From Nocardioides ferulae (GTDB taxonomy: Bacteria; Actinomycetota; Actinomycetes; Propionibacteriales; Nocardioidaceae): a DNA stretch of 64,000 nucleotides. Numbering within the stretch: position 1 is the stretch's first letter; every line of letters begins with the position of its first letter. Of this stretch, positions 39,888 through 61,065 are shown piece by piece. Where the stretch lies: NCBI RefSeq assembly GCF_003660455.1, contig NZ_QZVR01000018.1, positions 62,001 through 126,000 of the forward strand, read 5' to 3'. The notes beneath the pieces were generated by a model. It did no database searches. It saw nothing but the letters and a program-made list of their open reading frames with translations, and was not told where the DNA came from. A program made the translations under genes and the position numbers.

Positions 39888-40250
39888 AGGACCAGTGAAA
39901 CAGAGCCCACCGACAGTCACTCCAAAGGACTTACGTACGTCTGTGACAAACACCTGTTCGATCTCGACTCCGTGCGTCGCCGGCGCCTGATCGGTCGTGC
40001 ACGCGTCGAGCAACTGCGACCCACCGATGACCGCTGGACCCAGTCGCCGATAGGCGTGCCGTCCCGCCAGCGCATCGCCAGGGATCTCAGACCGGGCAAC
40101 TGGTGCTCGCTGAACGGCTGCGCACCTTCGATTCGACGGCGTTGCGGTTTCAATTTGAGCCCATTTCTTGGGCCCACGCGTCCCCGACCCCGCCAAAGCG
40201 AAAGGCCCCCACCATCGCGTCTCCGCAGGTGAGGGCCACTTCTGAATCTG
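39888..40250. other. Non-coding stretch between HNH gene and tRNA fragment
   Basis: These 363 bp hold no supported gene. The HNH promoter must lie at the left side. The right end holds the terminator at 40204-40237. The base composition is less extreme than in the genes around it. Confidence 0.5.
40204..40237 (-). terminator. Terminator of the former tRNA-Arg gene
   Basis: Read on the minus strand, GGCCCTCACC and GGTGGGGGCC form a 10-bp stem with one mismatch, followed by TTTCGCTTT. It lies 14 bp beyond the tRNA 3' end, as expected for a tRNA gene's own terminator. Confidence 0.7.
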
Positions 40251-40292
40251 CGCGCCCGTAGGGATTCGAACCCCAAACCTTCTGATCCGTAG
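40251..40292 (-). pseudogene. 3' fragment of tRNA-Arg(ACG), candidate attachment site
   Basis: On the minus strand, the sequence from the anticodon loop CTACGGA through stem TCAGA, T-arm GGGGTTCGAATCCC and acceptor end CGGGCGC-G matches the 3' half of an actinobacterial tRNA-Arg(ACG). The 5' half (D-arm and 5' acceptor strand, expected to begin GCGCCCGTAG) is absent. Instead CCTTCTGATCC precedes the fragment, forming an 11-bp inverted repeat with GGATCAGAAGG across a 7-base centre. This is what a displaced tRNA 3' end at an integration boundary looks like. Confidence 0.7.
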
Positions 40293-40617
40293 CCAGGATC
40301 AGAAGGACCTCGAGGCCCCTGGTGACGACCCGACGCGCCTCTGACCGACACCGCTCTCACGGAGAAAATAGCAGGTCAGCGGGATATCCGCCGGGCTGTC
40401 GTGCCCAGACGCCGGTCGTCGCAGCAGGACGCTGCCAGGAGTAGCCGGCGAGGTTTTTGAGCCGATATTGAGCCTGTCCACTGACCGGACTGACGGAAGG
40501 CTCGGCCAGCAGGGCTCACGCCGGCGCCTGCTCCTGTCCGTTGCTGAACGGTCTCCCTCGTACTAATCACTAGCTGCTGCGACCTCGCTGCGGCCTATGT
40601 GTACCTGCCCTTCGACG
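40293..40617. other. Non-coding stretch beyond the tRNA fragment
   Basis: These 325 bp separate the tRNA fragment from the Crp-family gene. No open frame shows coding bias. I see no integrase remnant here. Confidence 0.5.
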
Positions 40618-41313
40618 TCAACGGGAAAATGCCTCGAGCTCCTGGGGCTTGAGGATGGTGACCCCCTTGGGACGCAGCTCGATGTATCCCGACGCGGTGA
40701 GGCTGGCCAGCGCCTTGTTGACCGACTCTCGAGCGGCACCCACGAGCTGCGCCAGTTCGACCTGCGTCAACTGATGGTCGACGTGCACGGAGCCATTCCC
40801 CAGAACGACGCCGAAGCGCTCGCCGAGCCGCACGAGGACCTTCGCGACCCGACTCGTCACGTCAGCGAAGACGAGATCCGAGATCACCTCGCTCGAGGAG
40901 CGAAGACGACGTGCCAGGTGACGCAGGAGGACGCCTGCCATCCATGGCCGTTCTTCCAACCACTCATCGAACCGAGGCTGCGGGAGCTCCAGCACCGTCG
41001 ACGGCGTCACAGCGACGACCGTGCCGCTGCGTCGGCCGCCACCGAGCAAGGACATCTCGCCGAACACGTCGCCAGCGCCGAAGAGCGCCTGGATGCCGGC
41101 CGCAGCCTGTCCACCTCGTCGCGACAGCTTCAGCATGCCCGTCTGCACGACGTACAGGCTGGCGCCTTCCTCATCCTGGTGGAAGAGGGCCTGGTTGCGC
41201 CGCAGGTCGACGGGAACCATGACTGCCAGCACCTCCGCCGTGGCGGTCTCGTCGATGCCGAGGAAGGCGAGGGAAGTCAGAAGCGACTCCGGGACCGGTT
41301 GCTGCACACTCAT
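40618..41313 (-). CDS. Crp/Fnr-family transcription regulator
   Basis: The product is 231 residues. The N-terminal cyclic-nucleotide-binding domain (residues 20-135) has FHQDEEGASLYVVQTG and GAGDVFGEMSLLGGGRRSGTV at the phosphate-binding cassette. The C-terminal Crp helix-turn-helix reads TQVELAQLVGAARESVNKAL. The Arg of the phosphate cassette in RRSGTV fits cAMP-type ligand binding, though ligand identity is not proven. The frame continues upstream for 83 codons without homology, so the ATG at 41313 was chosen. The target genes are unknown. Confidence 0.9.
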   Translation of the reverse strand: MSVQQPVPESLLTSLAFLGIDETATAEVLAVMVPVDLRRNQALFHQDEEGASLYVVQTGMLKLSRRGGQAAAGIQALFGAGDVFGEMSLLGGGRRSGTVVAVTPSTVLELPQPRFDEWLEERPWMAGVLLRHLARRLRSSSEVISDLVFADVTSRVAKVLVRLGERFGVVLGNGSVHVDHQLTQVELAQLVGAARESVNKALASLTASGYIELRPKGVTILKPQELEAFSR

Positions 41314-41652
41314 CCCGCCATGGTGGCCGACGCATGTTTCAGGCAGGTTCCTCCGCGTGCCGGGCCGCCCTCGGAGCGACGTGTGGGCGGGCGGTGGCCC
41401 TTGCTCGCGCTGGCACCCTCCGTCCCTACGGCGCCCGTGCGACTCACCCGCGCCGCTGGGTGCGCGGCGCCAGGAAACGTGGCGGGTCCGCGCCGTCGTC
41501 CATGACGGATGACTTGGGCGATTACTCTCACAGGACACAGACGCACGTGCTCCCAGCAACAATCCACCGAGTCCCCGCTAAGCGTGCAGAAGCGCCGACG
41601 GGCGAAGCCCGAGGACGCCGTTCGTCCTCTTGAGGTCAGGCAGTTGGGGCAA
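41314..41652. other. Non-coding stretch between Crp gene and IS110 relic
   Basis: These 339 bp hold no supported gene; they should include the Crp-gene promoter. Codon bias is absent in all frames. Confidence 0.5.
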
Positions 41653-41995
41653 TCACCACGGTGTGTCCCACCCTCTACAGCTGCGCCACCAGTCTGCGGT
41701 GTGCGCCTCCACGTTGCGCTTCTCCAACGACTCCGGTCCGAGGTCGCGGTAGGGCACCGCGCTTTTAACAAGTAGGCCGTGCCCAGGATCGAGTGCTCCA
41801 TCGCGACCTGAGCGCGGCACATTCTACGCCGACGCGTCAGCCGAGCCGTGCTGGGCGGCGAGCTAGTTCTTGCCCTTCATCCGACCGACCGGCCCAGCGG
41901 CCTGAACCAGCATCGACCTCAACCACTTGTTGCCCCGGCGACGCCCGGCCGGGAGTCCGCTTTCCCCGCCGGGAACGTTCCCGGCCGACGCCGTC
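41653..41995 (-). pseudogene. Decayed IS110-family transposase, C-terminal part
   Basis: Two pieces in different frames or separated by stops match the transposase_20 end of IS110 elements: RGNKWLRSMLVQAA..GRMKGKN, a stop, LAAQHG, then EHSILGTAYLL, PYRDLGPESLEKRNVEAHT and GWDTP before the last stop. The catalytic N-terminal DEDD half is missing. This is a dead remnant, not an active transposon. Confidence 0.7.
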
Positions 41996-42527
41996 GTTCG
42001 AGAGCCTTGGGCAAGAGTGGCGCTGACCTGCACTAACAGTGCTAGCGAGTCGCCGTACGTGGTCAGTATGTTGTCGTCGCTTCGACTCCCGGCGAGGGGC
42101 AGGTTGAGGGCAGGACAGTCGTCGAAGGTCTTATCCCATGTCACCGACCCGGTGCCGTTTCGCAACACTCCCGCTCCAGCGAACGAGTCCGCCGTCGCGA
42201 CCCCAGCTTTAGGACGTCGTCCTTTCGACTTGCGCTGCCGGACCGTCTCAAGGCGGTCGACCCAGATCCAACCCACGGATCAAGTGCCCCTGCCGGGGGT
42301 GTACGACCGGCGATGCCGCAACTCACGTATGGCAGAGCCGGGCATACACGGGGGTGACCGGGGTACGCGCCGTTGGGTCCTTCCGGGAGGTATCGGGTTT
42401 GGCCGCCGCGCCCCAGCGCCGGCGCTCTGCTGAGCGCGCGACGGCTAATAGACACGGGCCCTGGATGTGTTGCCGCTCGCGTGAGATTTCGCCCGGTCGC
42501 GTGTCAGCAACCTGGCTGGACATACGA
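41996..42527. other. Degenerate non-coding stretch upstream of the IS110 relic
   Basis: These 532 bp have no supported gene and an irregular base pattern unlike the flanking genes. They may include further decayed mobile DNA, but I could not place any second element by sequence. Confidence 0.5.
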
Positions 42528-43355
42528 CTACGAGGCGGCGACCAGCGTGACAGCCCCGGCACAGAGCGAAAGGCCGAGCAGCTGAGCGAGGTGGATCTTC
42601 TCGCGCAGGAGGACGGCGGCGAGAAGCACGGTCACTGCGGGGTAGAGGGCAGTGATCACGCCGGTCACCGACAGGTACCCGAAGCGGGTCGCGACCATGA
42701 AGAGGCCCGTGCCTAGTGCTCCGACCAATCCGCACGGAACAAGGACAAGGACGAGTGGCTCCCAGGCGAGGACCGGCTCGCGCACGAGGAGTGCAAGGAG
42801 GCCGACGACCACCGCAGCGACGAAGTTGGTGAGAGCGACCGGCAGGAGTCCGGCGCTCTCAGGCATCTGGCCGAGTCCGGCGAACAGGACCCCGAATCCC
42901 ACGCCTGCCAGGATGCCGTCAACGATGCCGGTGCTGCTCGCGGAGGAAGACGCCGGCGGTCGGGCGACCAGCCAGATCGCGGGAAGGGCTAGCAGCATGC
43001 CCAGCCACGCAAGCGGGTCCGGTCGCTCGCCGACGAGGATGCCGACGAGGACGGGGACGAGGGCCGCACCGACGCCCGAGATGGGGGCGACCACTCCCAT
43101 CCGCCCGGTGGCGAGTCCTCGGTAGAGCACGAGTGAACCCAGTCCGAGACCAACGCCGGCGACGACGATCCAGGTGAGGTCGGTGGCACCGACGGTGCCC
43201 CCGCTGAACGCCCATCCGACGGAAGCGGCGAAAGCGCCGCTGAGAACCACCATGAAAGTGCTGATCCACGGCCGAACTCGGTTGGTCGCGATGCCGGCGA
43301 CGAAGTCGGCGGTGCCGTAGAAGAGGGCGGCGAGCAGGGCAAGCGTGACGGCCAT
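42528..43355 (-). CDS. EamA/DMT-superfamily transporter
   Basis: This 275-residue integral membrane protein has ten predicted helices in two EamA halves. VVAPISGVGAALVPVLVGILVGER ends the first (quoted in part), and ALYPAVTVLLAAVLLREK ends the second, which is the typical LxPVxxxLxxxLxxxE pattern. It probably exports a small polar metabolite. The ATG shares one base with the MBL hydrolase stop (TGATG), so it is co-translated with the formaldehyde genes upstream. Confidence 0.9.
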   Translation of the reverse strand: MAVTLALLAALFYGTADFVAGIATNRVRPWISTFMVVLSGAFAASVGWAFSGGTVGATDLTWIVVAGVGLGLGSLVLYRGLATGRMGVVAPISGVGAALVPVLVGILVGERPDPLAWLGMLLALPAIWLVARPPASSSASSTGIVDGILAGVGFGVLFAGLGQMPESAGLLPVALTNFVAAVVVGLLALLVREPVLAWEPLVLVLVPCGLVGALGTGLFMVATRFGYLSVTGVITALYPAVTVLLAAVLLREKIHLAQLLGLSLCAGAVTLVAAS

Positions 43356-44080
43356 CAGGACAGGACCTCGCGAGCACCGGGTCGCGAGGCCGACAGGCCC
43401 TCGGCCTCTTCCTCGTCCTCGGTGGGGGTCCCGTCGAGAGAGGCGACACTCGTCGCCGGGGGTCCGAGGGCAGCCCGCTCGGCGCCGATGGTGGTGTCGT
43501 CGCCGTGGCCGGTGTGCACCACGGTCTCCTCGGGCAGCGCGAAGAGCTTGGCCCGGATCGAGGCCTCGATCGTCGGTCGGTCGCTGAAGCTGCGGCCGGT
43601 CGCGCCGGGACCGCCCTGGAAGAGGGTGTCCCCGGTGAAGACGACGCCCAGCGAGGGCGCGTGGAAGCAGACCGCACCGGGCGCGTGGCCCGGCGTGTGC
43701 AGCGCGCGCAGCAGGGTGCCGCCGACCACGATCTCAAAGCCCTCGCCGAGGTCGACGTCCCAGAGGTGGCCGTGCTCGTCCTGGGGGTGGGTGAGCTCCC
43801 ACAGCGGACGGTCGTCGGGGTGCAGCATGATCGGCGCGACCACCCGCTCCCGCAGCGCCGGGGCCATCCGGCTGTGGTCGTCGTGGGCGTGGGTGAGCAG
43901 GATCGCGCGCACGACCCGGTCGCCGACGACCTCCATGATCGCGTCGACGTCGTGGGGCGCGTCGATGACCACGCACTCCGCGTCGTCGCCCACCACCCAG
44001 ATGTTGTTGTCGACCTCGTGGGTCTCGCCGTCGAGGCTGAACGTGCCGCTGACCAGCGCGTGGCCGACCCGGGCGGTCAC
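43355..44080 (-). CDS. MBL-fold hydrolase paired with mscR
   Basis: The product is 241 residues. The metallo-beta-lactamase metal site is [11 protein letters not shown] with downstream HTPGHAPG and FTGDTLF and a last His in VHTGHGDDT. It is of the glyoxalase II type. The same MBL-mscR pair occurs in mycobacteria, where the MBL protein is suspected to hydrolyse S-formylmycothiol to formate. Its GTG overlaps the mscR stop by 4 nt. The role is inferred from this pairing. Confidence 0.85.
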
Positions 44081-45189
44081 ACGATCACCACCGAGCGGAG
44101 GACGTCGCCGTGGTGCATCTTGTCGAAGGCGGCCTCGACGTCGCCGATGCCGATCTCCTCGGTGACGAACGCGTCGAGGTCGAGCCGGCCCTGCTGGTAG
44201 AGGTCGACCAGCATCGGGAAGTCGCGCGAGGGCAGGCAGTCGCCGTACCAGCTGGACTTGAGCGCCCCGCCGCGGCCGAACACGTCGATCAGCGGCAGGT
44301 CGGGCACCTTCATGTCGGGGGTGGGCACGCCGACGAGGACGACGGTGCCGGCGAGGTCGCGGGCGTAGAACGCCTGCTTCCACGTCTCCGGTCGGCCGAC
44401 CGCCTCGATGACGACGTCGGCGCCGTCCGCGCCGTCGTAGGTCTCGGCGCAGATGCGCTTGATCTCCTCCACCGGGTCGACCTGGGAGGAGTCGACGGTG
44501 TGGGTCGCGCCCATCTCGGTGGCCCTCGCGAGCTTCTTGGGGTCGATGTCGACGGCGATGACCGGAGACGCCCCGGCGAGCGCGGAGCCGGCGATCGCGG
44601 CGACGCCGACGCCGCCGCACCCGATGACCGCGACCGAGCGGCCGCGGGTGACGGCGCCGGTGTTGATGGCCGCGCCGATGCCGGCCATCACGCCGCAGCC
44701 GAGCAGGCCGACCGCCGCCGCCCGGGCGGAGGGGTCGACCTTGGTGCACTGGCCGGCCGCGACCAGGGTCTTCTCGGCGAAGGCGCCGATGCCGAGCGCG
44801 GGGCTGAGCTCGGTGCCGGCCCCCTCACCGTCGGCGAGCGTCATCTTCTGGGTCGCGTTGTGGGTGTTGAAGCAGTAGTGCAGGTCGCCGCGCTTGCAGG
44901 CCCGGCACTCGCCGCACACCGCGCGCCAGTTGAGGACGACGAAGTCGCCGGGCGCCACGCCGGTCACGTCCGGCCCGACGGCCTCGACGACGCCGGCGGC
45001 CTCGTGGCCGAGCAGGAACGGGAACTCGTCGTTGATCCCGCCCTCGCGGTAGTGCAGGTCGGTGTGGCAGACGCCGCAGGCCTGCACCTGCACCACGGCC
45101 TCGCCCGGACCCGGGTCGGGGACGTTGATCGTCACCACCTCGACCGGGGCACCCTTCGCCCGCGCGACCGCCGCCTTCACCTGCTGCAT
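44077..45189 (-). CDS. mscR: S-(hydroxymethyl)mycothiol dehydrogenase
   Basis: This 370-residue zinc alcohol dehydrogenase has catalytic zinc ligands in [10 protein letters not shown] and [11 protein letters not shown], and structural zinc cysteines in [15 protein letters not shown]. The NAD-binding motif is [14 protein letters not shown]. Length and the family pattern NATQKMTL fit the mycothiol-dependent formaldehyde dehydrogenase, also a nitrosomycothiol reductase. It would oxidise formaldehyde-mycothiol adduct to S-formylmycothiol. The ATG has GAGGAG about 7 nt upstream. It lies directly next to a Rieske N-demethylase that would release formaldehyde. Confidence 0.9.
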
Positions 45190-45355
45190 GTGCACTCCTC
45201 TTCTCGTGGGATCTGGGTCGCCGCGCAAACCCAGGCGCTGCTGGGTCGCGCGGCCGCACCTTGCTGGCGGGAGAGGCCTCTGCCGCTCTGCCGCTCCGCC
45301 TCTCGACCGCGCTTGGCGACCGGAAGCGAGCCGACCGGCGGGCCGTGCGACGTCG

Positions 45356-46333
45356 TCATAGATCGAGCACCAGCCGCGGTGAACGGGCCCTGCTGACACA
45401 GAGCATCATCGTGTTCCCGGTCTCGCGCTCCTCGTCGCTGAGGAGACTGTCACGGTGATCGGCCAGGCCGCCGAGGACCTCGGTCTCGCAGGTCCCACAG
45501 ATGCCTTCCCGGCAGGACGTGAGGACGTCGACACCGATGTCCTCCAGCACGTCGATGATCGAGCGATCGGCCGGTACCTGCATGCTGACGCCGGTCCGGA
45601 CGAGCTCGACCTCGAAAGGTGTCGACGAGGCGTCGTCGGCTGCGGACGCCGGGGCGAATCGCTCGATGTGCAGCTGCATGCTCGTCCTGGCCGACCGTTC
45701 ACCCAGCACGTCCAAGAGCGGCTCGGGTCCGCATGCGTAGACGAGGACGCCCGGTCCGACTCCAGCGAGCGCCCGATCGAGGTCGATCAGGCCGCACTCG
45801 TCCTGGGGATATATGGTCACCCGGTCGTCATGCTCGGCCAACCGGTCGCGGAACGGCATCGACAAGCGGTGACGACCGCCGTAGTGCAGCTCCCAGGCGG
45901 ACCCGGCCGCCTCGGCCGCCGCGATCATCGGCAAGATCGGCGTGATGCCGATGCCACCGGCGATGAACACGTACCTCTCGGCCGGCAGCAACGGGAACAG
46001 GTTGTGGAAGCCCGTGACGTCGAGCTCGTCGCCCGCGGCTACGTGGTCGTGGAGGTAGGCGGAGCCGCCGCGGCTGGGGTTGGCCCGAAGCACGCCGATC
46101 GACCACTCCGCGGGGTCGGACAGGGACCCGCACAACGAGTATTGGCGCCGGATCTCTCCGGGCAGCAGCAGCTCGAGGTGCGCGCCCGGTTCCCAGGCCG
46201 GCAGGTCAGCGCCACCCGCGTCGGCCAGACGCAGGACTCGCACGTCCTCGGCGGCTTCCTCGATCCCCGTCACTCGAAGGCGCGCAGGGAGCCGTGCAGC
46301 GGCACGTTCCCCTGCGCCGGCCGGTCGCTTCAC
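45356..46333 (-). CDS. Ferredoxin reductase component of a Rieske oxygenase
   Basis: The product is 325 residues. The N-terminal FNR-like part has [10 protein letters not shown] (flavin) and [14 protein letters not shown] (nucleotide). The C-terminal [2Fe-2S] ferredoxin has [14 protein letters not shown] and a last ligand in MLCVSRA. It supplies electrons from NAD(P)H to the Rieske oxygenase; this layout is that of VanB, CntB and GbcB. It starts with ATG overlapping the oxygenase stop (ATGA). Confidence 0.92.
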
Positions 46334-47439
46334 CGACCCGCGCGAGCGACCGCGTCGCGCACCAGCTTCTGGAACGCCACGACCTGGCCCTCATCAGGGA
46401 CGAGGACGCCCGTGGGGACGGCATTGCCGACGACCCCGCGCTGGACCGACTCGATCAGGCGGACGTCCTCCCACCCGACCTCGTCGACGAATTCGGTCAG
46501 CTTCTCGGCCGCGTCGTCGGTCATGGCCGGATCCAGGAAGTAGTCGAAGTGGGCCACGGTCTCCCCAGGCGAGACCGGCGTGAACGAGTAGACGAGGAGG
46601 TTGCCCTCGCCAGGGAACGTCCAGGTGGCGAAGTTCGGCCAGAGATAGTCGTTCTGGTTGACCTCCACAGGACCGACCATGTTGTACGGCGCCTTGTCCG
46701 GCTCCTGCTTGAACACGTCCCGCGGAAGGGTGCGCGCGGTCATCCAGTCCTGGTTCACCTCGAACGGGTAGCCCTCCGACGTGGCGACGTCGAACGCCTT
46801 CGTGTAGCTCGGGTGCGCCGGCGCACAGTGGTAGCACTCCAGGAAGTTCTCCGCGACGACCTTCCAGTTCCCCTTGATCGTCATCTCGGTGCGCTTGCGG
46901 TGCACCAGCTTGGTGACATCGACACCGACGTCGATCAGCACGTCCTGCAGCCGCCCAATCCAGTCCTGCAGCGGTGCGACGTCCTGGTCCAGGCACACGA
47001 ACACCATCTGACCCCACACGGCGACAGGCAGCTTGACGAGCGGGAACTGCGACTTGTCGAAGTTCTCGAAGCGAGTCTCCCGGGGGGCGTTGCACAAGTT
47101 GCCCTCGAGGTCGTAGCTCCAGGCGTGGTAAGGACACGCCAGGCGGCGAGCATTTCCGCTCCCCTGTGCCACTTCGTGGAAGCGGTGCCGGCACACGTTC
47201 ACCAGCGCATTGATGCCCTCGGCCGACCGGGTCACCACCACCGGGACGTCCCCCACCGTGACGGTGAGGTAGTCGCCGGTCCTGGTCAAGGACTCGGTGG
47301 TGCCGAGGTATTGCCAGGTCTTGGCGAAGATCTCTCGGCGCTCGATCTCGAGGATCTCGGGATCGGTGTACCAGCTCACGGGAAAGCTGGGAACGAGCTC
47401 GCCTCGACGTGCCTCATCGGCGACGTTCAGAAGAGTCAT
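46330..47439 (-). CDS. Rieske non-heme iron oxygenase, CntA/GbcA type
   Basis: The product is 369 residues. The Rieske cluster ligands are CRHRFHE and CPYHAW. The mononuclear iron site reads ENFLECYHCAPAHP, in which Glu takes the place of the usual bridging Asp. This Glu occurs in N-demethylating enzymes acting on carnitine, glycine betaine and proline betaine. The expected reaction is oxidative removal of a methyl or larger group from a quaternary amine. It is divergent from an Lrp-type regulator and co-transcribed with its reductase. The exact substrate is not clear. Confidence 0.9.
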   Translation of the reverse strand: MTLLNVADEARRGELVPSFPVSWYTDPEILEIERREIFAKTWQYLGTTESLTRTGDYLTVTVGDVPVVVTRSAEGINALVNVCRHRFHEVAQGSGNARRLACPYHAWSYDLEGNLCNAPRETRFENFDKSQFPLVKLPVAVWGQMVFVCLDQDVAPLQDWIGRLQDVLIDVGVDVTKLVHRKRTEMTIKGNWKVVAENFLECYHCAPAHPSYTKAFDVATSEGYPFEVNQDWMTARTLPRDVFKQEPDKAPYNMVGPVEVNQNDYLWPNFATWTFPGEGNLLVYSFTPVSPGETVAHFDYFLDPAMTDDAAEKLTEFVDEVGWEDVRLIESVQRGVVGNAVPTGVLVPDEGQVVAFQKLVRDAVARAGR

Positions 47440-47485
47440 GGTCGATCTCCATTTCTATTGATTGCGCACGATTCTCGCGCTTCTT

Positions 47486-47500
47486 TTGCGCATTGCGCAA
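47486..47500. promoter_or_regulatory. 15-bp palindrome in the Rieske/Lrp intergenic region
   Basis: TTGCGCATTGCGCAA is a perfect palindrome around one base. A further TTGCGCA half-site lies at 47462-47468. It is placed between the divergent oxygenase and Lrp genes and is a candidate Lrp binding site. Confidence 0.55.
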
Positions 47501-47562
47501 CGGGGAGACATGTTAAGTCTGTGTTGCGATGCCAGGCGTTACGTGTGTGGAAGGATCGCGAC

Positions 47563-48069
47563 GTGGACAACGACGCAACGGCGGCGCTCGCAGACCGCGA
47601 CGGGGCGCAGGCCGAGATCTCGCTCGACGATCTCGATCGCAAGATCCTGCAGGAGCTCCAGGACGACGGGCGTCGCGCGTTCAGGGACATCGCGCGGACG
47701 CTCCAGGTGTCCGAGGCGACGGTCCGGGGCCGCGTCAAGCGACTTCGAGACACAGGGGTGCTGCAGATCCTCGGCTATGTGGACCCGGCTGCCTACGGCT
47801 ACGGGACCATGGTCGTCCTCCTGGTCAAGGCATCACCAGCCGCGCACTCACGAGCGGTCGCGGAGTTCACCGCGTGGCCGGAAACCACCTGGGTGTCCAC
47901 CACGATCGGGCGCAGCAACATCTACGTCCAGATGCTGTGCAAGGACAGCGACAGCCTGTACGCGCTGCTGACCAGCCGCCTGGGTGACGTCGACGGCATC
48001 GTCGACGTCGACGTCATCCAGGAGGTCAAGGTCCACAAGGCGGAGTACCACTACTCCCGCCTCAGCTGA
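47563..48069 (+). CDS. Lrp/AsnC-family regulator
   Basis: The product is 168 residues. The N-terminal helix-turn-helix (DDLDRKILQELQDDGRRAFRDI, then LQVSEATVRGRVKRL) is followed by a RAM ligand-binding domain (VVLLVKASPAAHSRAVAEF, TIGRSNIYVQMLCKD). It is divergent from the Rieske oxygenase and converges on the NCS1 gene. It probably senses the amine substrate or an amino-acid product. GTG start with AAGGA upstream; the extremely long upstream frame is spurious. Confidence 0.9.
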   Translation: MDNDATAALADRDGAQAEISLDDLDRKILQELQDDGRRAFRDIARTLQVSEATVRGRVKRLRDTGVLQILGYVDPAAYGYGTMVVLLVKASPAAHSRAVAEFTAWPETTWVSTTIGRSNIYVQMLCKDSDSLYALLTSRLGDVDGIVDVDVIQEVKVHKAEYHYSRLS

Positions 48070-48087
48070 GGCGACGGGACCCTCGGC

Positions 48088-49554
48088 TCACCGCTGCAGA
48101 CGTTCGGCCATCTGCGCCGGATCGCGCGTCGCGGCCTCGCGATAGCCGCCCTTGCCCATCCTGCGGACCACGAGTGATGCCAGCCAGTAGGCGGCTCCGG
48201 CCGCCAGCATCGAGGGCAGGCTCGCAGTCGTGTACGTGAAGAATGTTCGGGGTGTGTACGTGAGCGGGTCGAGCAGCATCAAGAACGTCGCCACACCCAC
48301 CCCGAACCCCACGACGGCGGCCGGATTGACGCCGGCCCAGAATCGGTAGGTGTTCGTCGGGCCGTCGGTGTACAGCGCGCGGACGTCGAGGGTCTGTCGG
48401 CGCAGGAGGAAGTAGTCCACCGCCTGGATGCCGCACATTGGCGCGAGGAAGAGCCCGCAGACCGCAAGGAAGACTTGCAGGTTGGCGACGAACGCATCAG
48501 CGAAGAAGACGGCGACCACGGCGCTGGGGATGAGCGCCAGGGCACATGCCGTGCTCCACGACGTTCGTCTCGAGATGGCCGGGACCTGGCGGATGCCGAC
48601 CGCCGCTGAGTACGCGCCGACCATGGTCGATCCGACGTTGGCCAGCACGATGAAGGCCAGTGCTATGACGCCGAAGACCACGCCGCCGACCTGGGTCAGG
48701 AAGGCTGTCGGGTCGCCGCCGGAGTCAGGTACCACCAAACCTGCGAGAAGCCCGATGATCGACACCGCCGCGAGCGGCACGGCCAGACCGAAGATGCTCG
48801 GCCACAGCGCCGTCCGAGCACTCGGCACCAGGCGAACCATGCCGCCTACGTAGGGCCACCAGGCGATTGCCGTGGCGATGAAGGCTTCCACGCTGATCGT
48901 CACGTTGGTGGCCTTGTTGTCGAACGGCGCGAGCGGTGCCGCGTCGAGAAGTCCGCTCACACCCACCTCCTTGATGAGCAGGCCAAGGACGCACGTGGCT
49001 AGGACCAGCACACCCAGGGCGATCCATTTGGACGAGCTTGCCAACGCCGACGAGCCGCGGCGGATGACCAACCACACGACGCCGAGGCCGGCGAGCATCG
49101 CGATCACCTCGGTAGCGGAGCGTGCCTGCTCACCGATCAATCCCATCGTCACCAGAATCTCCGCGACCGCACGGCCGAGGATGACGACGATCACGGTGTT
49201 CCACCCGGCGAGGATGACGAACAGCAGTGCTACGGCGAGGTACCAGCCACGGCTGCCCATGAACGTCTTCGAGGAGAGTGCTGAGTCGACCCCGTACTTG
49301 GTCGCCACCGGGACGATGGAGATCAGGATCACGCCGATGCCGATGAGGATCCCCGCCATCATGGCAATGGCGCCGGTCACGGCATCGAGGTAGTAGGCGA
49401 CGGTGCCGCCGAGCACGAAGCACCAGGTCGCCACCGCGGTCGAGGTGGACGAGGCGAGCAGCGTGCCACCGCGCCACGTGCGCTCGCTCTTGAGGAGCGG
49501 TGCGTTGTCCAGTCCGGCGAAGCTGGAGCTCGATGCCGGCTTACCGGCGTTCAT
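48088..49554 (-). CDS. NCS1-family transporter (purine/hydantoin/cytosine permease type)
   Basis: This 488-residue membrane protein has twelve predicted helices. The N-terminal NCS1 signature is at RTWRGGTLLASSTSTAVATW, with later GIQAVDYFLLRRQ and VNPAAVVGFGVG. NCS1 proteins import nucleobases, hydantoins, allantoin and related nitrogen compounds. Downstream on the same strand lies no enzyme, but nearby genes encode a Rieske N-demethylase and an M20 amidohydrolase, so an amine- or carbamoyl-type substrate is plausible. The ATG overlaps the stop of a 90-residue membrane protein gene. Confidence 0.88.
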   Translation of the reverse strand: MNAGKPASSSSFAGLDNAPLLKSERTWRGGTLLASSTSTAVATWCFVLGGTVAYYLDAVTGAIAMMAGILIGIGVILISIVPVATKYGVDSALSSKTFMGSRGWYLAVALLFVILAGWNTVIVVILGRAVAEILVTMGLIGEQARSATEVIAMLAGLGVVWLVIRRGSSALASSSKWIALGVLVLATCVLGLLIKEVGVSGLLDAAPLAPFDNKATNVTISVEAFIATAIAWWPYVGGMVRLVPSARTALWPSIFGLAVPLAAVSIIGLLAGLVVPDSGGDPTAFLTQVGGVVFGVIALAFIVLANVGSTMVGAYSAAVGIRQVPAISRRTSWSTACALALIPSAVVAVFFADAFVANLQVFLAVCGLFLAPMCGIQAVDYFLLRRQTLDVRALYTDGPTNTYRFWAGVNPAAVVGFGVGVATFLMLLDPLTYTPRTFFTYTTASLPSMLAAGAAYWLASLVVRRMGKGGYREAATRDPAQMAERLQR

Positions 49555-49823
49555 GCGAGCAGCAGGGCGACGACAAACATGACCAGCGGGACCAACACGG
49601 TGGCGAGCGCGACGGCGTAGTAGTCGACGACGGCATAGCTGTCGCCGTCGTTGCTGGCCTCCGATGCGAGTTCCACGCGATGGGCGAAGTCGTCGACCGC
49701 GCCGGTGGGCAGGTGGTGGACGAGGGCGGGGCCGGCTACTCCGGCCAGAGGGGTGAGTTCATGAGCGGTCATCAGGTCTGGCTCCAAGTACGGGGCGTGC
49801 CCGCCGCCGTTCGATGCCTTCAT
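49551..49823 (-). CDS. 90-residue membrane protein coupled to NCS1 transporter
   Basis: This protein has a long soluble N-terminus (LTPLAGVAGPALVHHLPTGAVDDFAHRV) and one C-terminal hydrophobic helix (AVALATVLVPLVMFVVALLLA, 21 residues, quoted without its last Ala below). The helix core is VALATVLVPLVMFVVALLL. It overlaps the NCS1 start by 4 nt (ATGA). Such small partners are not described for NCS1 carriers to my knowledge; it could stabilise or regulate the transporter. A GTCCACTG half-site lies upstream of its start. Confidence 0.6.
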   Translation of the reverse strand: MKASNGGGHAPYLEPDLMTAHELTPLAGVAGPALVHHLPTGAVDDFAHRVELASEASNDGDSYAVVDYYAVALATVLVPLVMFVVALLLA

Positions 49824-50147
49824 CGTCCGGCCGCGCGCTCTTACGGTAGACAATGTCCACTGCCCGTAGATGTGCCCTCGTGCCGGATACGTAAATCGTG
49901 GGTAACGAGTGCGAGTCCCACGCTTTGCGTATCTGTCAGGGCCTGATTTCGCGCATCGCGGTGGCGACTGACCCCTCCCGGCGGGGACTATGTGTGACCA
50001 GCTTGACCGCAGTGGGGCCGGCGACAGTCGGAACCCGCTGCGTCGACGTCCACGAGGCGCTGCCCCTGGTCGGCCAGGGCACGTCACGCGGCTTGGGAGG
50101 CGGGTGGCGCCGGGGGGCTGGGGCGCGGAAGTGTTGCACCACCCCCG
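49824..50147. other. Intergenic stretch between NCS1 unit and XRE-cupin gene
   Basis: These 324 bp should hold the promoter of the NCS1 unit. GTAGACAATGTCCAC at 49848-49862 (approximate left end) is a near-palindrome with the GTCCAC half that also flanks the gmaS promoter. I saw no riboswitch-like fold or small gene. Confidence 0.5.
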
Positions 50148-50792
50148 TCAGAGCGTCGAGTCCGGGAAGGCGATGACCGACAGGAAGACGATAGGCACCT
50201 GGACCAGCTCAAGCGGCCCGTGGGCGCCCTCGCCGTCGAACTGCAGGGAGTCTCCCTTCGCCAGGTGGTAGCGCTGGCGGCCGTGCCCGTAGACCATCTC
50301 GCCCTCGAGCATGTAGATGAACTCGGTGCCCGGGTGCTGGAAGAGCGGGTTGACCTCGCTCGTCTCGCTGAGGGTGACGAGGAGCGACTCGAGACGTTTG
50401 TGCTCACCGGGCAGCGAGCCGAGGAGCTGGTACGCGTGCCCTCGTTGCGTGCCGCGCCGCACGATGGGGGCCGCGTGGCCATCGGCCACGAAGGACGCCG
50501 GACGATCACTCTCGGCGCCTCGGAGGAGCGTGGTCGCCGGCACGTCCAGGCCGCGTGCGAGCGAAGCGAGGGTGGAGAGGCTGCACGAGGTCTGGGCGTT
50601 CTCGATCTTCGACAGCATCGCCTTGGAGATACCGATCCTGGCCGCCATGTCCGCGACCGAGAGTCCGTGCTGGGCACGCAGCCGGCGCACGTTCTCGGCG
50701 ATCGCCGCTTCCAGCTCCAGGATCTCACCGTCGTCCTCACGATGCCGTTCCCGCGCTGTGCCGGCGTTGCGGAGGAGCGCCTCGTCGTCCAT
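50148..50792 (-). CDS. XRE-cupin transcription regulator
   Basis: The product is 214 residues. The N-terminal XRE helix-turn-helix reads LRAQHGLSVADMAARIGISK, then AMLSKIENAQTSCSLSTLAS. The C-terminal cupin_2 sensor domain contains NPLFQHPGTEFIYMLEGEMV and GDSLQFDGEGAHGP. Such regulators commonly control amine or polyamine catabolism. It lies at the downstream end of the amine operon, 104 bp beyond the M20 hydrolase, and is the best candidate to read the GTCCACTG repeat near gmaS and in front of the NCS1 unit. The start is ATG. Confidence 0.9.
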   Translation of the reverse strand: MDDEALLRNAGTARERHREDDGEILELEAAIAENVRRLRAQHGLSVADMAARIGISKAMLSKIENAQTSCSLSTLASLARGLDVPATTLLRGAESDRPASFVADGHAAPIVRRGTQRGHAYQLLGSLPGEHKRLESLLVTLSETSEVNPLFQHPGTEFIYMLEGEMVYGHGRQRYHLAKGDSLQFDGEGAHGPLELVQVPIVFLSVIAFPDSTL

Positions 50793-50895
50793 GGGACCAC
50801 CGTAGTGGGGCGTCGTCTCCTCCCAGTGGCCGTCTATAGATCCACCACTCACGACCGATCGCCGCAGTTCCTCGACCGTCGCTGGACCAACGAGG

Positions 50896-52101
50896 TCATG
50901 CGGTCGCCAACATCTCCAGGCAGGCCGCGAGAGCAAGCGCTCCCGCCTCCGCGTCCGCGTCCTCCACCTGCTCGGACGGGGCGTGGGAGACACCGGTGGG
51001 GTTGCGGACGAAGAGCATGCCGGTGGGCACGTGCTGCTTGAGCACACCGGCATCGTGCCCGGCGCCGGTACTCAGCCGCGGCGCCTGGGGAAGCACCGCG
51101 CAGAGCTGGTCCTGCAGGCGGGCGTCGAAGTCGACCGTCGGGCTGTACGACTCCTCGGTGACCTCGACCGTGCACCCCTCCTCCGCGGCGACAGCAGCCG
51201 CCCGCGAGGCGATCTCGTCGACGAGGTACCGGGTGAGCGCGTCCTCGGGGTGCCGGAGGTCCAACCAGAGGTCGACGCGGGACGCGATGACGTTCGTCCC
51301 CCCGGGGACCGGGACGAGGCGTCCCACGGTCGCGCGGGCGTCCGGGATGCTGCGCGCCACGGTCTTGACCAGGACGATCGTCTGCGCGGCGGCGACCATC
51401 GGGTCCCGGCGGTCGCCCATGAGGGTCGTGCCGGCGTGGTTCCCCTCGCCGCTAATCGAGAACCTCCAGCGTCCGTGGCCCAGGATGCTGGAGCCGACCG
51501 CGACCGGCTCGCCGAGGTCGACCAGCCCGCGTCCCTGCTCGACGTGCAACTCCAGGAAGGTGCCGATCCGACCGAGCGTCTCGGGGTCGGGGCCCAGGTG
51601 CCTCGGATCGAGTCCGTTGCGGCTTGCAACCTCCGCGAGGGTCGTACCTTCGGAGTCGACGAGCGACCGCGCCCGGTCCGGGTCGAGGGCTCCGGTGAGG
51701 AGCCGCGACCCGAGACAGGCGACCCCGAACCGAGAGCCCTCCTCCTCCGGGAAGACGGCGATCGCCCGCGGACGCCCACCCACCCCCCGGGCGACGAGCT
51801 GGTCGAAGGCCACCAACGCCGAGGCGATGCCGAGCGGACCGTCGTACGCGCCTCCGCCGGGGACCGAGTCCAGGTGGCTGCCCGTGACGACGGCGTCCGG
51901 CCCGACGCCGCCGGCCCAGGCCCAGATGATGCCGTTGCGGTCGCGCTCCACGTCCAGGCCCCGCGCGGTCGCGTGGCCGACGAACCACTCGCGGAGGATG
52001 TGCTCGGCGTCGGAGTGGACGGGCCGCGTGTAGCCGCCCCGGGCAGGGTCGCGGCCGATGTCGGCGATCTCGGCGAGGAGGGAGGAGACGGTGTCGGTCA
52101 T
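50896..52101 (-). CDS. M20-family N-carbamoyl-amino-acid / allantoate amidohydrolase
   Basis: This 401-residue zinc peptidase-fold enzyme has metal ligands in TGSHLDSVPGGGAYDG, FPEEEGSRFG and LELHVEQGRG, with dimer-domain GNHAGTTLMGDRRD and the last His in VSHAPSEQV. It is close to the hydantoinase/carbamoylase group, which removes a carbamoyl or ureido group. It is last in the unit headed by gmaS. Its substrate in this context is unclear: an N-carbamoyl or ureido compound could release an amine that joins the pathway. Confidence 0.88.
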   Translation of the reverse strand: MTDTVSSLLAEIADIGRDPARGGYTRPVHSDAEHILREWFVGHATARGLDVERDRNGIIWAWAGGVGPDAVVTGSHLDSVPGGGAYDGPLGIASALVAFDQLVARGVGGRPRAIAVFPEEEGSRFGVACLGSRLLTGALDPDRARSLVDSEGTTLAEVASRNGLDPRHLGPDPETLGRIGTFLELHVEQGRGLVDLGEPVAVGSSILGHGRWRFSISGEGNHAGTTLMGDRRDPMVAAAQTIVLVKTVARSIPDARATVGRLVPVPGGTNVIASRVDLWLDLRHPEDALTRYLVDEIASRAAAVAAEEGCTVEVTEESYSPTVDFDARLQDQLCAVLPQAPRLSTGAGHDAGVLKQHVPTGMLFVRNPTGVSHAPSEQVEDADAEAGALALAACLEMLATA

Positions 52102-52108
52102 GGGAGTC

Positions 52109-52558
52109 CTAGGTCGGCGAGGCGAAGGTCACGTCGGCGAGGAGGTCACCGAGCAGGACCGTGACGTGGGGAGCGGCGGAGAAGGCAGGCGGCAAGCCGT
52201 GGGCTGACCGGCGGAGGACGACCCCGGCTACGCAGGACCCTCGCCGGGTCATCACGTTGAGGGCCCGGGTGGGTCGGTCGAGGCTGACGGCGACGGCGGC
52301 CTCGCCGGGGAATCGGACCTGCTCACCGGTCGTCAGGTCGACCGGGGTCCCGTCGATGGTCAGCCGGAGCGGGCCCAGGGCGGTGAGGAGCCGGTCCATG
52401 CCCGGGAAGCCGGAGAACGGCGCGTCCCGGACGAGGTCGGCGAGACTGATCCGCCACCGGGTCTCCCCCGTGTCCTCGCGCGCCACGGACAGCTCACGGG
52501 TGGACCCTGCGCCGTTGCGCCAGGGCGTCGGGTCCACCCGTGCGGGGTCGAGCAGCAC
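52109..52558 (-). CDS. HutD/Ves-family protein
   Basis: This 149-residue protein has the HutD/Ves cupin-type pattern: PTPWRNGAGSTRELSVA, ISLADLVRDAPFSGFPGMDRLLTAL (quoted by parts) and FPGEAAV. Members often lie in histidine or amino-acid utilisation operons; biochemical role is unknown. It begins with a GTG 5 bp after the stop of the FAD oxidase gene and ends 8 bp before the M20 gene. Confidence 0.8.
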   Translation of the reverse strand: MLLDPARVDPTPWRNGAGSTRELSVAREDTGETRWRISLADLVRDAPFSGFPGMDRLLTALGPLRLTIDGTPVDLTTGEQVRFPGEAAVAVSLDRPTRALNVMTRRGSCVAGVVLRRSAHGLPPAFSAAPHVTVLLGDLLADVTFASPT

Positions 52559-52562
52559 CTCG

Positions 52563-53744
52563 TCAGCGCATCTCGCCGGCACCGACGTAGGGGTGCAGAC
52601 TGGAGAGCGGCCGGCCCTCAGCGAACCGCTCGAGGCGGAAGTCCGAGGCAGGGACGTCCGGATCGGTGCTGTCGCCCTCGAGGACGAGGTCGGCGACCAG
52701 GTCACCGACGGCCGGGCTGATCTTGAAGCCGTGGCCGGCGAACCCGGCGCATAGGACCAGTCCGTCGATCGCCCCGACGGGGCCGATCACCGGGTTCCAG
52801 TCCGGCGGCACGTCGTAGACGCCGGCGTAGGTGTGCGTGACCGCCGGCTCGGGGAAGCCGGGGAAGCGGTGCATCACCTTCTCGGCGTACCGCATGATGC
52901 TCGCCTCGCCGGCGACGTTGGAGTACCTGTCGGGGTCGACGAACTTCGCTTGGAAATCGGCGTGGTCGCTGTTCCCGACCAGGAACTGGCCGGCGCCCTC
53001 GAGCCGGCAGTACTGCAGGCTGACGAGATCCGAGACGACTGGTAGATCCGGCAGCGGCTCGCCAGCATCGACGATGATGAGCTCGGACCGGTAGGCCTCG
53101 ATCGGGAGCTCGATGCCGAGGTCGGCCATGAGCTTCGCGGACCACCATCCCGACGCCACGACCACGACGTCTGCCTCCACGACCTCCCCACCCTCGAGCT
53201 CCACGCCGCTCACGCGGTCACCTTGGGTGAGCACCCGGGCCACCGGGGCGTGCTGGCGGATCCTCGCTCCGTCGGCGCGGGCCTGCTGCCCGTAGTGCAG
53301 CGCCAGCTGGGTCGCGTCGGCGAACCCTCCGCGCGGCTCGTAGGAAACCAGAGCGACGTCCTCGACGTTCATCATCGGCCACATCGACTGCAACTTCCCG
53401 ACGTCGATGAGGTCGACGTCGATGCCCAGGCCCTGGTGCATGGCGGTGTTCGCCGCCAGCGCCTCGGCGTTCTCCTCGCCGACGATCACCGTGTAACCGA
53501 CCTGCCGGAACCCCACGGCGTCGCCGAGCTCCTCGAAGACCGGGACGCTGCGCCACGCCATCGCCGCCAGCGAAGGCACGCCGTAGTGCGCACGGACGAT
53601 GCCCGACGACTTCCCCGTGCCGCCGGAGGCGAGGCTGTGCCTCTCGAGCACGAGCACCTCGGCGACGCCCCGACCGGCCAGCGCTCGCGCGATCGAGAGA
53701 CCGATCAGCCCGCCTCCGACGACCACCACCTTCTGCCCCGACAT
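52563..53744 (-). CDS. FAD-dependent amine oxidoreductase (sarcosine oxidase beta-like)
   Basis: The product is 393 residues. The FAD Rossmann motif is VVVVGGGLIGLSIARAL; DVVVVASGWWSAKLMADLGI and AGVYDVPPDWNPVIGP mark the DAO/sarcosine-oxidase family. It overlaps the MgsC-like gene by one base (TGATG). In methylotrophs N-methylglutamate is oxidised by a four-subunit sarcosine-oxidase-like enzyme (MgdABCD); here only this beta-like protein is present, so it may act alone on N-methylglutamate or sarcosine, releasing formaldehyde. Function is inferred from its place. Confidence 0.82.
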   Translation of the reverse strand: MSGQKVVVVGGGLIGLSIARALAGRGVAEVLVLERHSLASGGTGKSSGIVRAHYGVPSLAAMAWRSVPVFEELGDAVGFRQVGYTVIVGEENAEALAANTAMHQGLGIDVDLIDVGKLQSMWPMMNVEDVALVSYEPRGGFADATQLALHYGQQARADGARIRQHAPVARVLTQGDRVSGVELEGGEVVEADVVVVASGWWSAKLMADLGIELPIEAYRSELIIVDAGEPLPDLPVVSDLVSLQYCRLEGAGQFLVGNSDHADFQAKFVDPDRYSNVAGEASIMRYAEKVMHRFPGFPEPAVTHTYAGVYDVPPDWNPVIGPVGAIDGLVLCAGFAGHGFKISPAVGDLVADLVLEGDSTDPDVPASDFRLERFAEGRPLSSLHPYVGAGEMR

Positions 53745-55099
53745 CAGAAGGCCCCTCCGGTGTTCCAACCGGGAACCCAGGAGGTGCCGGCGAGCGGGAT
53801 CCGCGCCATCGCAGCGGCCTCGATCGAGATCGCCACCATGTCCTCGGGCTCGAGGTGGGTGACGTGTGCCTTGCCGCAGGCGCGCGCGATGGTCTGGGCC
53901 TCCATGGTGAGCACCCGCAGGAAGTTGGCGACCCGCCGCCCGCCCTCGGCCGGATCGAGCCGCTTCTGCAGCTCGGGATCCTGGGTGGTGATCCCGGCCG
54001 GGTCGAGACCGGCCTGGAAGTCGTCGTAGAACCCCGCGGCGCTGCCGAGCGCCTCGTACTCCGCGGCGTACTTCGGGTCGTTGTCCCCGAGCGCGATGAG
54101 CGCCGCCGAGCCGATGGCGACGGCGTCGGCGCCGAGCGCCAGGCACTTGGCCACGTCCGCGCCGTTGCGGATGCCACCGGAGACGATCAGCTGGACGCCG
54201 TCGGGCTTGCGGTGCACGCCGAGCTCCTGGAGCGCTTGGACCGCCTGGGGGATGGCCGCCAGCGTCGGGATGCCGACGTTCTCGATGAACACCTCCTGGG
54301 TGGCGGCGGTGCCACCCTGCATGCCGTCGACGACGACCACGTCGGCGCCGGCGTGCACGGCGAGCTTGACGTCGTAGTAGGTGCGCGAGGCGCCGACCTT
54401 CACGTAGATCGGCTTCTCCCAGTCGGTGATCTCCCGGATCTCGTTGATCTTGATGGTCAGGTCGTCCGGGCCGGTCCAGTCGGGGTGCCGCGAGGCCGAT
54501 CGCTGGTCGATGCCCTGCGGCAGGTCACGCATGCCGGCGACCCGCTCGGAGACCTTCTGACCCAGCAGCATCCCTCCGCCGCCCGGCTTGGCGCCCTGCC
54601 CGAGCACGATCTCGATCGCGTCGGCTCGCCGCAGGTCGTCGGGGTTCATGCCGTACCGGTTCGGGAGGTACTGGTAGACGAGGTGCTTGGAGTGGCCGCG
54701 CTCCTCGGGCGTCATGCCTCCGTCGCCGGTCGTGGTCGAGGTCCCGGTCTCGGATGCCCCGCGACCCAACGCCTCCTTGGCGTTGGCCCCCAACGCCCCG
54801 AACGACATGCCGGCGATGGTGACCGGGATGTCGAGGTGGAGTGGGTATCGCGCGTTGCGGGCGCCGAGGACCACGTCGGTCCCGCACTTCTCGCGGTAGC
54901 CCTCCAGCGGATAGCGACTGACCGAGGCACCCAGGAAGAGCAGGTCGTCGAAGTGCGGGAGCGGCTTCTTCGCGCCCCAGCCGCGGATGTCGTAGATGCC
55001 GGTCTGTGCGGCGCGCTGGATGGCGGCGATCGTCGCGCGGTCGAAGGTGGCGGACTCGCGCAGGCCCAGCCGGGCGCGGTCCTCAGGTGTGGAAGTCAT
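53744..55099 (-). CDS. mgsC: N-methylglutamate synthase FMN subunit (MgsC-like)
   Basis: This 451-residue protein is the FMN-binding barrel domain of glutamate synthase encoded alone. Signatures are ITIKINEIREITDWEKPIYV, GADVVVVDGMQGGTAATQEVF, VSGGIRNGADVAKCLALGADAVAIG (quoted by parts) and a trailing FeS-like region with TMEAQTIARACGKAHV. With the amidotransferase (MgsA) and GXGXG (MgsB) proteins it reconstitutes the three parts of GltB, as in N-methylglutamate synthase. It would transfer methylamine to 2-oxoglutarate. Start at ATG 55099. Confidence 0.82.
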   Translation of the reverse strand: MTSTPEDRARLGLRESATFDRATIAAIQRAAQTGIYDIRGWGAKKPLPHFDDLLFLGASVSRYPLEGYREKCGTDVVLGARNARYPLHLDIPVTIAGMSFGALGANAKEALGRGASETGTSTTTGDGGMTPEERGHSKHLVYQYLPNRYGMNPDDLRRADAIEIVLGQGAKPGGGGMLLGQKVSERVAGMRDLPQGIDQRSASRHPDWTGPDDLTIKINEIREITDWEKPIYVKVGASRTYYDVKLAVHAGADVVVVDGMQGGTAATQEVFIENVGIPTLAAIPQAVQALQELGVHRKPDGVQLIVSGGIRNGADVAKCLALGADAVAIGSAALIALGDNDPKYAAEYEALGSAAGFYDDFQAGLDPAGITTQDPELQKRLDPAEGGRRVANFLRVLTMEAQTIARACGKAHVTHLEPEDMVAISIEAAAMARIPLAGTSWVPGWNTGGAF

Positions 55100-55109
55100 C
55101 GTCGGAACC

Positions 55110-55784
55110 TCAGTAGGTGTTGTCGGCGTGGAAGTGGTAGAGCGTCCGGGCCGAGCCGTAGCGCCGGTACGTCGCCGGGTCGTCGTCGGCGAACCCCGCG
55201 GCCTTGAGCAGGCCCGCCAGCTCCTGCACGTGCTCGGGACCCATCTCTTTCTCGACGCAGTCGGCGCCGAGCGACCTGACCTCGCCGCGCACGTAGAGCC
55301 GTGCCTCGTAGAGGGAGTCGCCGAGCGCGTCGCCGGCGTCACCGCGGACGACCAGGGTCCCCCGCTGCGCCATGAAGGCGCTCATGTGGCCGACCGAGCC
55401 GCCCACGACGATGTCGAGGCCCTTGAGCGAGATCCCGCACCGGGCACCTGCGTCGCCGTCGATGACGAGCAGACCCCCGCGACCGGTCGCGCCGGCCGAC
55501 TGGGAGGCCGACCCGGTCACGTGGACCACGCCGCTCATCATGTTCTCCGCGACACCCTGGCCGGCGTTGCCGTTGATCGTCACCTCGGCCTGCTGGTTCA
55601 TGCCGGCGGCGAAGTAACCCAGGTGGCCGTTGACCGTCACCTTGATGGGGGCATTGACACCGACGGCGACGTTGTGGGCGCCGAGCGGGTTCTCGATGAG
55701 GAACTCGTCGTCGAGGTCCGGGGCGTGCAGCGCCTGGTTGACCTCGCGGAGGCCCACCGCGCTCAGGTCGAAGGTGGTGGTCAC
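55110..55784 (-). CDS. mgsB: N-methylglutamate synthase GXGXG subunit (MgsB-like)
   Basis: The product is 224 residues. A right-handed beta-helix of repeats such as VTVNGHLGYFAAGMNQQAEV and GLDIVVGGSVGHMSAFMAQ matches the GXGXG domain of glutamate synthase; it lacks the catalytic Cys and FMN site. It overlaps the mgsA stop by 4 nt and lies 10 bp before mgsC. Confidence 0.82.
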   Translation of the reverse strand: MTTTFDLSAVGLREVNQALHAPDLDDEFLIENPLGAHNVAVGVNAPIKVTVNGHLGYFAAGMNQQAEVTINGNAGQGVAENMMSGVVHVTGSASQSAGATGRGGLLVIDGDAGARCGISLKGLDIVVGGSVGHMSAFMAQRGTLVVRGDAGDALGDSLYEARLYVRGEVRSLGADCVEKEMGPEHVQELAGLLKAAGFADDDPATYRRYGSARTLYHFHADNTY

Positions 55785-56692: not shown

Positions 56693-56722
56693 TCCTGTCT
56701 CTCCTTCGGTCGGGGCGACGGC

Positions 56723-58048: not shown

Positions 58049-58066
58049 GGCACTGCTCCTCGGGTT

Positions 58067-58103
58067 GTCCACTGAGATGACTCTATGATTCATGCCAGTG
58101 GAC
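58067..58103. promoter_or_regulatory. Inverted repeat around the gmaS promoter
   Basis: GTCCACTG (58067-58074) and its exact inverse CAGTGGAC (58096-58103) flank 21 bases that contain, on the minus strand, ATAGAGT, a likely -10. It is a candidate operator for the XRE-cupin regulator. Confidence 0.6.
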
Positions 58104-58172
58104 GCCGATGGGTTTCCGCCGTGTTTCGCTCCCGTGAAGTCCGGCGGGTTCGCCGCTGGCGCCGGAAATGAC

Positions 58173-58208
58173 AGGTGGCGGGTGGGCGTCGCCGCCCACC
58201 CGCCACCT
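58173..58208 (-). terminator. Terminator after glnK
   Basis: A perfect 16-bp stem (AGGTGGCGGGTGGGCG) with a 4-nt loop starts 15 bp past the glnK stop. It separates the oxygenase-amtB-glnK unit from the gmaS unit. Confidence 0.8.
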
Positions 58209-58222
58209 CGTGACGCCTCGCC

Positions 58223-58558: not shown

Positions 58559-59928
<1,370 letters not shown>

Positions 59929-59972
59929 GGGACCTCCTTCTGCTGGATCGACCAGCGCTGGTGTGGGTGTGC

Positions 59973-61040: not shown

Positions 61041-61065
61041 CGTGCTGCGCTCCTCAGGAGTGACG

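Follow-up and report, generated by a model that had tools for sequence, protein, structure and literature searches.

How does the 3' half of a tRNA gene come to lie, with its 5' half missing, beside a set of metabolic genes in Nocardioides ferulae? The question is raised by a stretch of 64,000 nucleotides (hereafter the window), which corresponds to C18:62001-126000 in a draft genome of 68 contigs. An earlier note on this DNA had read the fragment as the edge of an island integrated into a tRNA gene, and our analysis supports that reading. We hold with high confidence that a tyrosine-integrase element occupies the 3' half of tRNA-Arg(ACG), and that the ends found on contigs C19 and C18 are those of one island with amine genes among its cargo.

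The displaced tRNA half and its hairpin

The features around the junction, in window coordinates, are as follows.

40196..40245, minus strand: hairpin of 50 nt, 3' of the tRNA fragment
40246..40292, minus strand: displaced 3' part of tRNA-Arg(ACG), 47 bp, 100% identical to the intact C19 gene
40293..40472, minus strand: end of the element (left arm of its attachment site), with homology to the corresponding ends of elements in G114, G091 and G152
40293..64000, no strand assigned: part of the island in the window, continuing to the end of C18

Read from 40292 to 40246 on the minus strand, the fragment begins with the first anticodon-loop base and comprises the 43 nt from that loop to the acceptor end plus 4 bp (AGAT). 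An alignment with the intact tRNA-Arg(ACG) that extends to 51 bp is 98% identical (E 9.5e-19), and the displaced half has a single copy within the window. The 5' half is absent, and ARAGORN detected no tRNA either in the whole window or in a piece made up of the fragment and about 300 bp on each side. No Rfam family reached the gathering threshold. The exact 47-bp copy, together with the ARAGORN result, confirms the proposal of a tRNA-Arg(ACG) 3' half without a 5' half; the shared segment of 42 bp given by the earlier note is likewise real, but slightly short. Chance similarity was rejected, as the 40-nt 3'-half pattern, when reversed, gave 0 matches in each of 147 genomes.

The hairpin behind the fragment is strong (-28.9 kcal/mol, z -5.18 against 200 shuffles), whereas a scan of 40196..40245 for a consensus terminator gave no match and the tail of the hairpin is poor in T. 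The terminator once suggested at this place stands as a terminator-like hairpin. By eye, hairpin-like sequence also lies directly behind the tRNA at several single-copy tRNA loci that were read. We take the terminator-like hairpin to be that of the original tRNA gene, which would have stayed with the displaced half, and 40246..40292 to be the putative junction of element and chromosome, holding the attachment core.

Two contigs carrying the ends of one element

The genome has one intact tRNA-Arg(ACG), at C19:113794-113867, only 4.1 kb short of the end of C19, so that the 3' half occurs genome-wide in two copies (one intact, one displaced) on separate contigs. An excisionase-type protein of 78 aa (TIGR01764, E 2.4e-11) starts about 0.24 kb after the intact tRNA and a tyrosine integrase of 414 aa (PF00589, E 3e-19; phrog_1) about 0.46 kb after it. 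The reading frame of the integrase gene is open, and its product is probably functional. Beyond the integrase there is a 265-aa protein without a Pfam match, and C19 then breaks off within an IS256 transposase gene (NF033543); pieces of this terminal region recur on other contigs. Over 845 bp the IS256 region is 88% identical to an IS256 region that lies within the Nocardioides sp. TF02-7 element (L010:17074-17914, L085:6082-6919). The earlier note had proposed looking for an integrase gene, and one does adjoin the intact tRNA, with an excisionase gene. It had also expected an intact tRNA-Arg to the right, beyond 64 kb; a tRNA sharing the 3' end exists, but on another contig, and its position to the right therefore follows from homology and synteny rather than from continuous sequence.

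One link between the contigs comes from a relative, G114, in which a complete element of 20.1 kb lies in the same tRNA on one contig (C1:111577-131739). The tRNA side of this element aligns with 1,900 bp of C19 at 85%, and on the fragment side 228 bp align with the window at 77% (a span that includes the fragment). Its integrase is 91% identical to that on C19. The fragment side of the window is also matched by G091 (75% over 144 bp, fragment included; integrase 89%) and G152 (76% over 138 bp, fragment included), while the match in G158 and G014 is limited to the tRNA half itself. C18 ends 3.2 kb past the window (window coordinate 67211), and near this end a gene for a 215-aa protein (C18:128128-128775) has a 53% homologue within the G114 element, which places the amine genes between an element end and a gene that another element of this family also has. 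In G032, G117, G060, G072 and G114, the C18 genes left of about window position 17,000 run after the tRNA in reversed order, and the orientation thus fits a succession of tRNA, element, and then C18 backwards to the fragment. Given this contig order, inferred from relatives and from the G114 element, the fragment is on the same strand as the tRNA and downstream of it. Direct observations comprise the two ends and their homology to one complete element, the integrase gene, and the two tRNA halves, intact and displaced.

When the flanks were joined in silico (5' side from C19, 3' side of the fragment), ARAGORN recognised a complete tRNA-Arg(acg), followed by the displaced hairpin; the reverse joint, i.e., the element junction, gave no tRNA. 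The last 512 bp of C18 have no other match in the genome at E<=1e-5, and 13.6 kb of internal DNA of the G114 element finds matches on scattered contigs of this genome, none of them bridging C18 and C19. We infer that the two contigs would be physically joined across this gap. As the gap is unread, the island measures at least 26.9 + 4.1 kb and is possibly larger.

In so fragmented a draft, the fragment might be a piece of misjoined contig, but we give this hardly any credence: it lies inside a 129-kb contig, 27 kb from the contig end, and the same architecture is found in G114, G091 and G088 with tRNA and fragment on one chromosome-sized contig. Such an artefact was rejected.

In the integration that we favour, a mobile element with a tyrosine integrase would have entered the tRNA-Arg(ACG) gene within its 3' half, bringing along in its attachment site a tRNA copy that reaches from the anticodon loop to the 3' end. 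Recombination there would have linked the 5' half of the host gene with the element's 3' half, restoring a working tRNA on C19, and the host's own 3' half with its terminator would have been displaced to the far end of the element, at window 40246-40292; the half on C19 is probably the one that came with the element. The element would run from behind the C19 tRNA (excisionase, integrase, IS256) through the assembly gap and backwards along C18 to the fragment, over at least 31 kb.

This arrangement resembles that of the islands catalogued by Islander, which are borne by tRNA or tmRNA genes and are described as having a regenerated tDNA at one end and a displaced 3' fragment at the other, with an attachment subsite centred on the anticodon as one of the types (PMC4383910). 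The present case shares with them the orientation of the fragment, a tyrosine integrase inside and the anticodon-centred subsite, and differs in that its ends sit on two contigs (PMC4383910). The words 'arg...' and 'actinobacteria' do not occur in the main text of the Islander paper, so a tRNA-Arg target is not described in that text (PMC4383910). A close parallel is the G114 element, with both ends homologous, the same left arm including an inverted repeat, and the closely similar integrase; it differs in having many transposase-like genes (by eye) and in that it shares a single gene, C18:128128-128775, with the C18 part of the island. The element of Nocardioides sp. TF02-7 (NZ_CP092535.1; L080, G158) lies in the same tRNA, with an 84% identical integrase and a displaced half 14.1 kb downstream of the tRNA, but no counterpart of the amine island was listed for it and the inverted repeat at its junction is at most 3 bp. 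Our literature search, which left most subscription journals outside its reach, found no paper linking Nocardioides, tRNA-Arg and integrase.

Cargo genes and the host side of the junction

Genes of the island within the window, with the basis of each assignment, are the following.

40618..41562, minus strand: Crp-type regulator (cNMP-binding + HTH_Crp_2; domain search)
42528..43355, minus strand: EamA-type transporter (domain search)
43355..44020, minus strand: metallo-beta-lactamase-fold protein (domain search)
44077..45207, minus strand: S-(hydroxymethyl)mycothiol dehydrogenase, formaldehyde oxidation (TIGR03451, 640 bits, cut-off 513)
45356..46333, minus strand: flavin/2Fe-2S reductase of an oxygenase (no NCBIfam model reached its cut-off)
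46330..47439, minus strand: Rieske oxygenase (nearest NCBIfam model glycine-betaine monooxygenase GbcA, 155 bits, far below the cut-off of 670)
47530..48069, plus strand: AsnC/Lrp-type regulator (domain search)
48088..49554, minus strand: NCS1-type permease (PF02133)
50896..52101, minus strand: allantoate amidohydrolase-like hydrolase (NF006770, 585 bits, cut-off 372)
53744..55342, minus strand: glutamate-synthase-domain protein, probably of the N-methylglutamate synthase type (domain search)
55781..56692, minus strand: glutamine amidotransferase domain, probably of the N-methylglutamate synthase type (domain search)
56723..58093, minus strand: type III glutamate-ammonia ligase family, probably of the gamma-glutamylmethylamide synthetase type (TIGR03105, 589 bits, cut-off 470)
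58555..59928, minus strand: ammonium transporter (domain search)
62103..62657, minus strand: DmmA-like (dimethylamine monooxygenase) subunit (PF22289, E 2.9e-7, above the gathering score)

These genes are consistent with the use of methylated amines via a predicted N-methylglutamate route. The known gene sets for dimethylamine monooxygenase and the N-methylglutamate pathway likewise include a DmmA-like subunit, a type III glutamine synthetase (GS), and glutamate-synthase and GATase domains (PMC5520151, PMC8235418). Compared with those sets, the present one differs in lying between tRNA-Arg attachment ends and in an actinobacterium, and its function is predicted (PMC5520151, PMC8235418). By eye, two tandem gene sets that appear to be of the dimethylamine-monooxygenase type extend from window position 59973 to L009:2107, followed by an EutQ/cupin-type protein; the two sets may serve two substrates. 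A type III GS is found at E<=1e-170 in 11 other genomes of the genus, in none of which was it shown to lie between tRNA-Arg and its fragment; it is on the contig of the tRNA but outside or far away in 3 (G052, G059 and G106) and on another contig in 8. Among the island proteins scanned with Pfam, which cover part of the genes and exclude the assembly gap, there were no conjugation or replication genes, nor did the scanned part include phage structural genes. A search of viral contigs with the integrase returned one distant match (29%).

The GC content of the island (69.4%) differs weakly from that of C18:2001-79000 (71.8%), and window 17155-40196 is native-like at 73.3%. The earlier note had placed chromosome to the left of the fragment and island to the right; conserved backbone is indeed to the left, but only left of about window position 17,000, as for the 23 kb beside the fragment (window 17,155-40,196) the relatives compared offer no good match close to the tRNA. 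In a search of the 147 genus genomes in which the best 2 candidates per genome were scored, homologues of the immediate left flank were scattered and, among the matches listed, none adjoins the tRNA; a further comparison gave only weak hits, e.g., a 49% match of gene 37728-38447 inside the element of G087. C18 genes were also compared with relatives at E<=1e-15, hits being listed from 45% identity or from 200 bits upwards; for G032, G117, G060 and G072 this listing has no C18 island gene within about 55 kb behind the tRNA. As to the empty site proposed as a check, relatives with a single copy do carry the genes from the left of C18 after their tRNA, but a copy of the tRNA site with this genome's immediate left flank and no element was not found among the relatives compared.

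Just beyond the island end there is an HNH-type gene (38490-39887, minus strand) without a Pfam hit at 1e-3. From its appearance we presume that it resembles the 13E12/DUF222 group. A stretch of it is 90% identical at C4:367778-369208 of the same genome.

tRNA-Arg(ACG) as an insertion site in the genus

We surveyed 147 genus genomes, this one included, for the 40-nt 3'-half pattern with at most 2 mismatches, and found no copy in 7, one copy in 111 and two or more in 29. Twenty extra copies were fetched from 18 genomes; all 20 lack the 5' half, and ARAGORN reported a tRNA in none. In 20 genomes the intact tRNA shares its contig with another copy, and in 18 of these that copy follows it downstream with unchanged strand (a count that includes the G052 copy, which was placed but not read), the exceptions being G062 (opposite strand) and G126 (two matches as long as the tRNA, 231 bp apart). 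Distances from tRNA to displaced half range from about 8 kb (G087) to 137 kb (G088), and G046 has two 3'-half copies on its contig C13, separated by 4.7 kb. The halves in G062 (C1:2502700 and 2963198) are about 460 kb apart, possibly through a chromosomal rearrangement after integration. G139 has four same-strand 3'-half copies within 56 kb (C1:5206973-5263371), apparently three tandem elements. A 75% homologue of the dehydrogenase at 44077-45207 occurs in G051 (C5:104066-104998), 10.8 kb past the displaced half and beyond what appears to be the arm of a second element.

The G126 pair suggests that tRNA duplication can happen, and the fragment in the window could on that account be a partial duplicate or a decayed second tRNA gene, with no integration involved. 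We regard this as extremely improbable, since the 47 bp are undecayed and start sharply at the anticodon loop, the extra copy elsewhere shows the consistent downstream placement given above, and the left flank of the fragment is homologous to element ends in relatives, which contradicts a decayed duplicate and led to its rejection.

A second alternative, improbable as well but somewhat less so, accepts integration and holds that the fragment was left by an older element of a tandem array, which would include the amine genes, and that the integrase on C19 came with a second element that arrived later. Arrays of this kind seem to exist at tRNA-Arg(ACG), as the four G139 copies on one strand of one contig indicate, and behind the displaced half of G051 comes the apparent second arm. 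However, an array of two elements needs three copies of the 3' half and this genome has two, and the C19 end finds its match in the very element, that of G114, which also matches the element end beside the window fragment.

The integrase points to the same site. Close relatives (E<=1e-120) occur in 8 of the 147 genomes, this one included, and in all seven others the gene lies 0.43-0.54 kb after a match of the same tRNA; four of them have a displaced half too (G114, G091, G014 and G121), and G107, G133 and G144 have a single copy. Of 21 integrase loci from named genomes, which belong to Nocardioides and other actinobacteria, 18 have a tRNA-Arg(ACG) ahead of the match and in the same orientation. 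The other three comprise L071, which has a displaced half instead, L074, whose sequence begins 155 bp before the match, and L081, a partial match with tRNA-Pro.

Identity with the tRNA begins at the first anticodon-loop base in this genome, G114, G014, G158 and G152, and one base earlier in G091. We place the crossover, by inference, inside the anticodon loop, and this onset fits the anticodon-centred attachment subsite in the Islander paper (PMC4383910). Among elements whose left arm is different, some show mismatches within the first three bases of the half, so that the exact crossover may vary between families.

Across this junction lies an exact inverted repeat (40278..40306; 11-bp arms around a 7-base centre), one arm of which derives from the tRNA (3' stem side of the anticodon) and the other is borne by the element. 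It is the only perfect inverted repeat in the window with arms of at least 11 bp and a 7-base spacer; allowing spacers of 3-20, there were 15 reports from 5 places. The repeat at the G114 junction has 14 bp with the same 7-base centre, and that of G091 has 12 bp with an 11-base centre. Repeats of at least 9 bp were found in 3 of the 9 elements measured (this genome, G114 and G091), and the remaining 6 have at most 5 bp, including G014 despite its 88% identical integrase; L138 in G139, outside the nine, has 8 bp around a 4-base centre by eye. The repeat may be a candidate for paired integrase core sites in this branch of elements. The repeat put forward previously as like a recombinase core is thus exact at this locus, but it is not a general mark of elements at tRNA-Arg(ACG).

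The acceptor-stem base (A or G) agrees between the displaced and the element-supplied halves in the same-contig pairs listed. About 20 genomes, as read off the listing, are of the G type and most of the A type. Both halves in this genome carry G, and A is the base in the 7 genomes of the genus with a relative of its integrase.

The mechanism, an island in a tRNA gene with a displaced 3' half, is textbook and of the ordinary mobile-element kind. What is particular is the place: tRNA-Arg(ACG) is, judging from the genomes compared, a recurrent and busy insertion point in the genus. More speculatively, and with rather less than even likelihood, there might be an undescribed family of integrative elements dedicated to tRNA-Arg(ACG) of Nocardioides and related actinobacteria, which would move catabolic cargo such as methylated-amine use, each arrival swapping the 3' half, with an acceptor-stem base that must match the host 5' half. 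If so, tRNA compatibility or later gene conversion would limit or reshape the host range. For this genome, one exact end is now fixed for an island with a likely methylated-amine catabolic route. Annotators may take tRNA-Arg(ACG) as a place to look for acquired gene sets in the genus, and the matched integrase and attachment site, with several natural variants, offer a system to study the harmless swap of a tRNA half.
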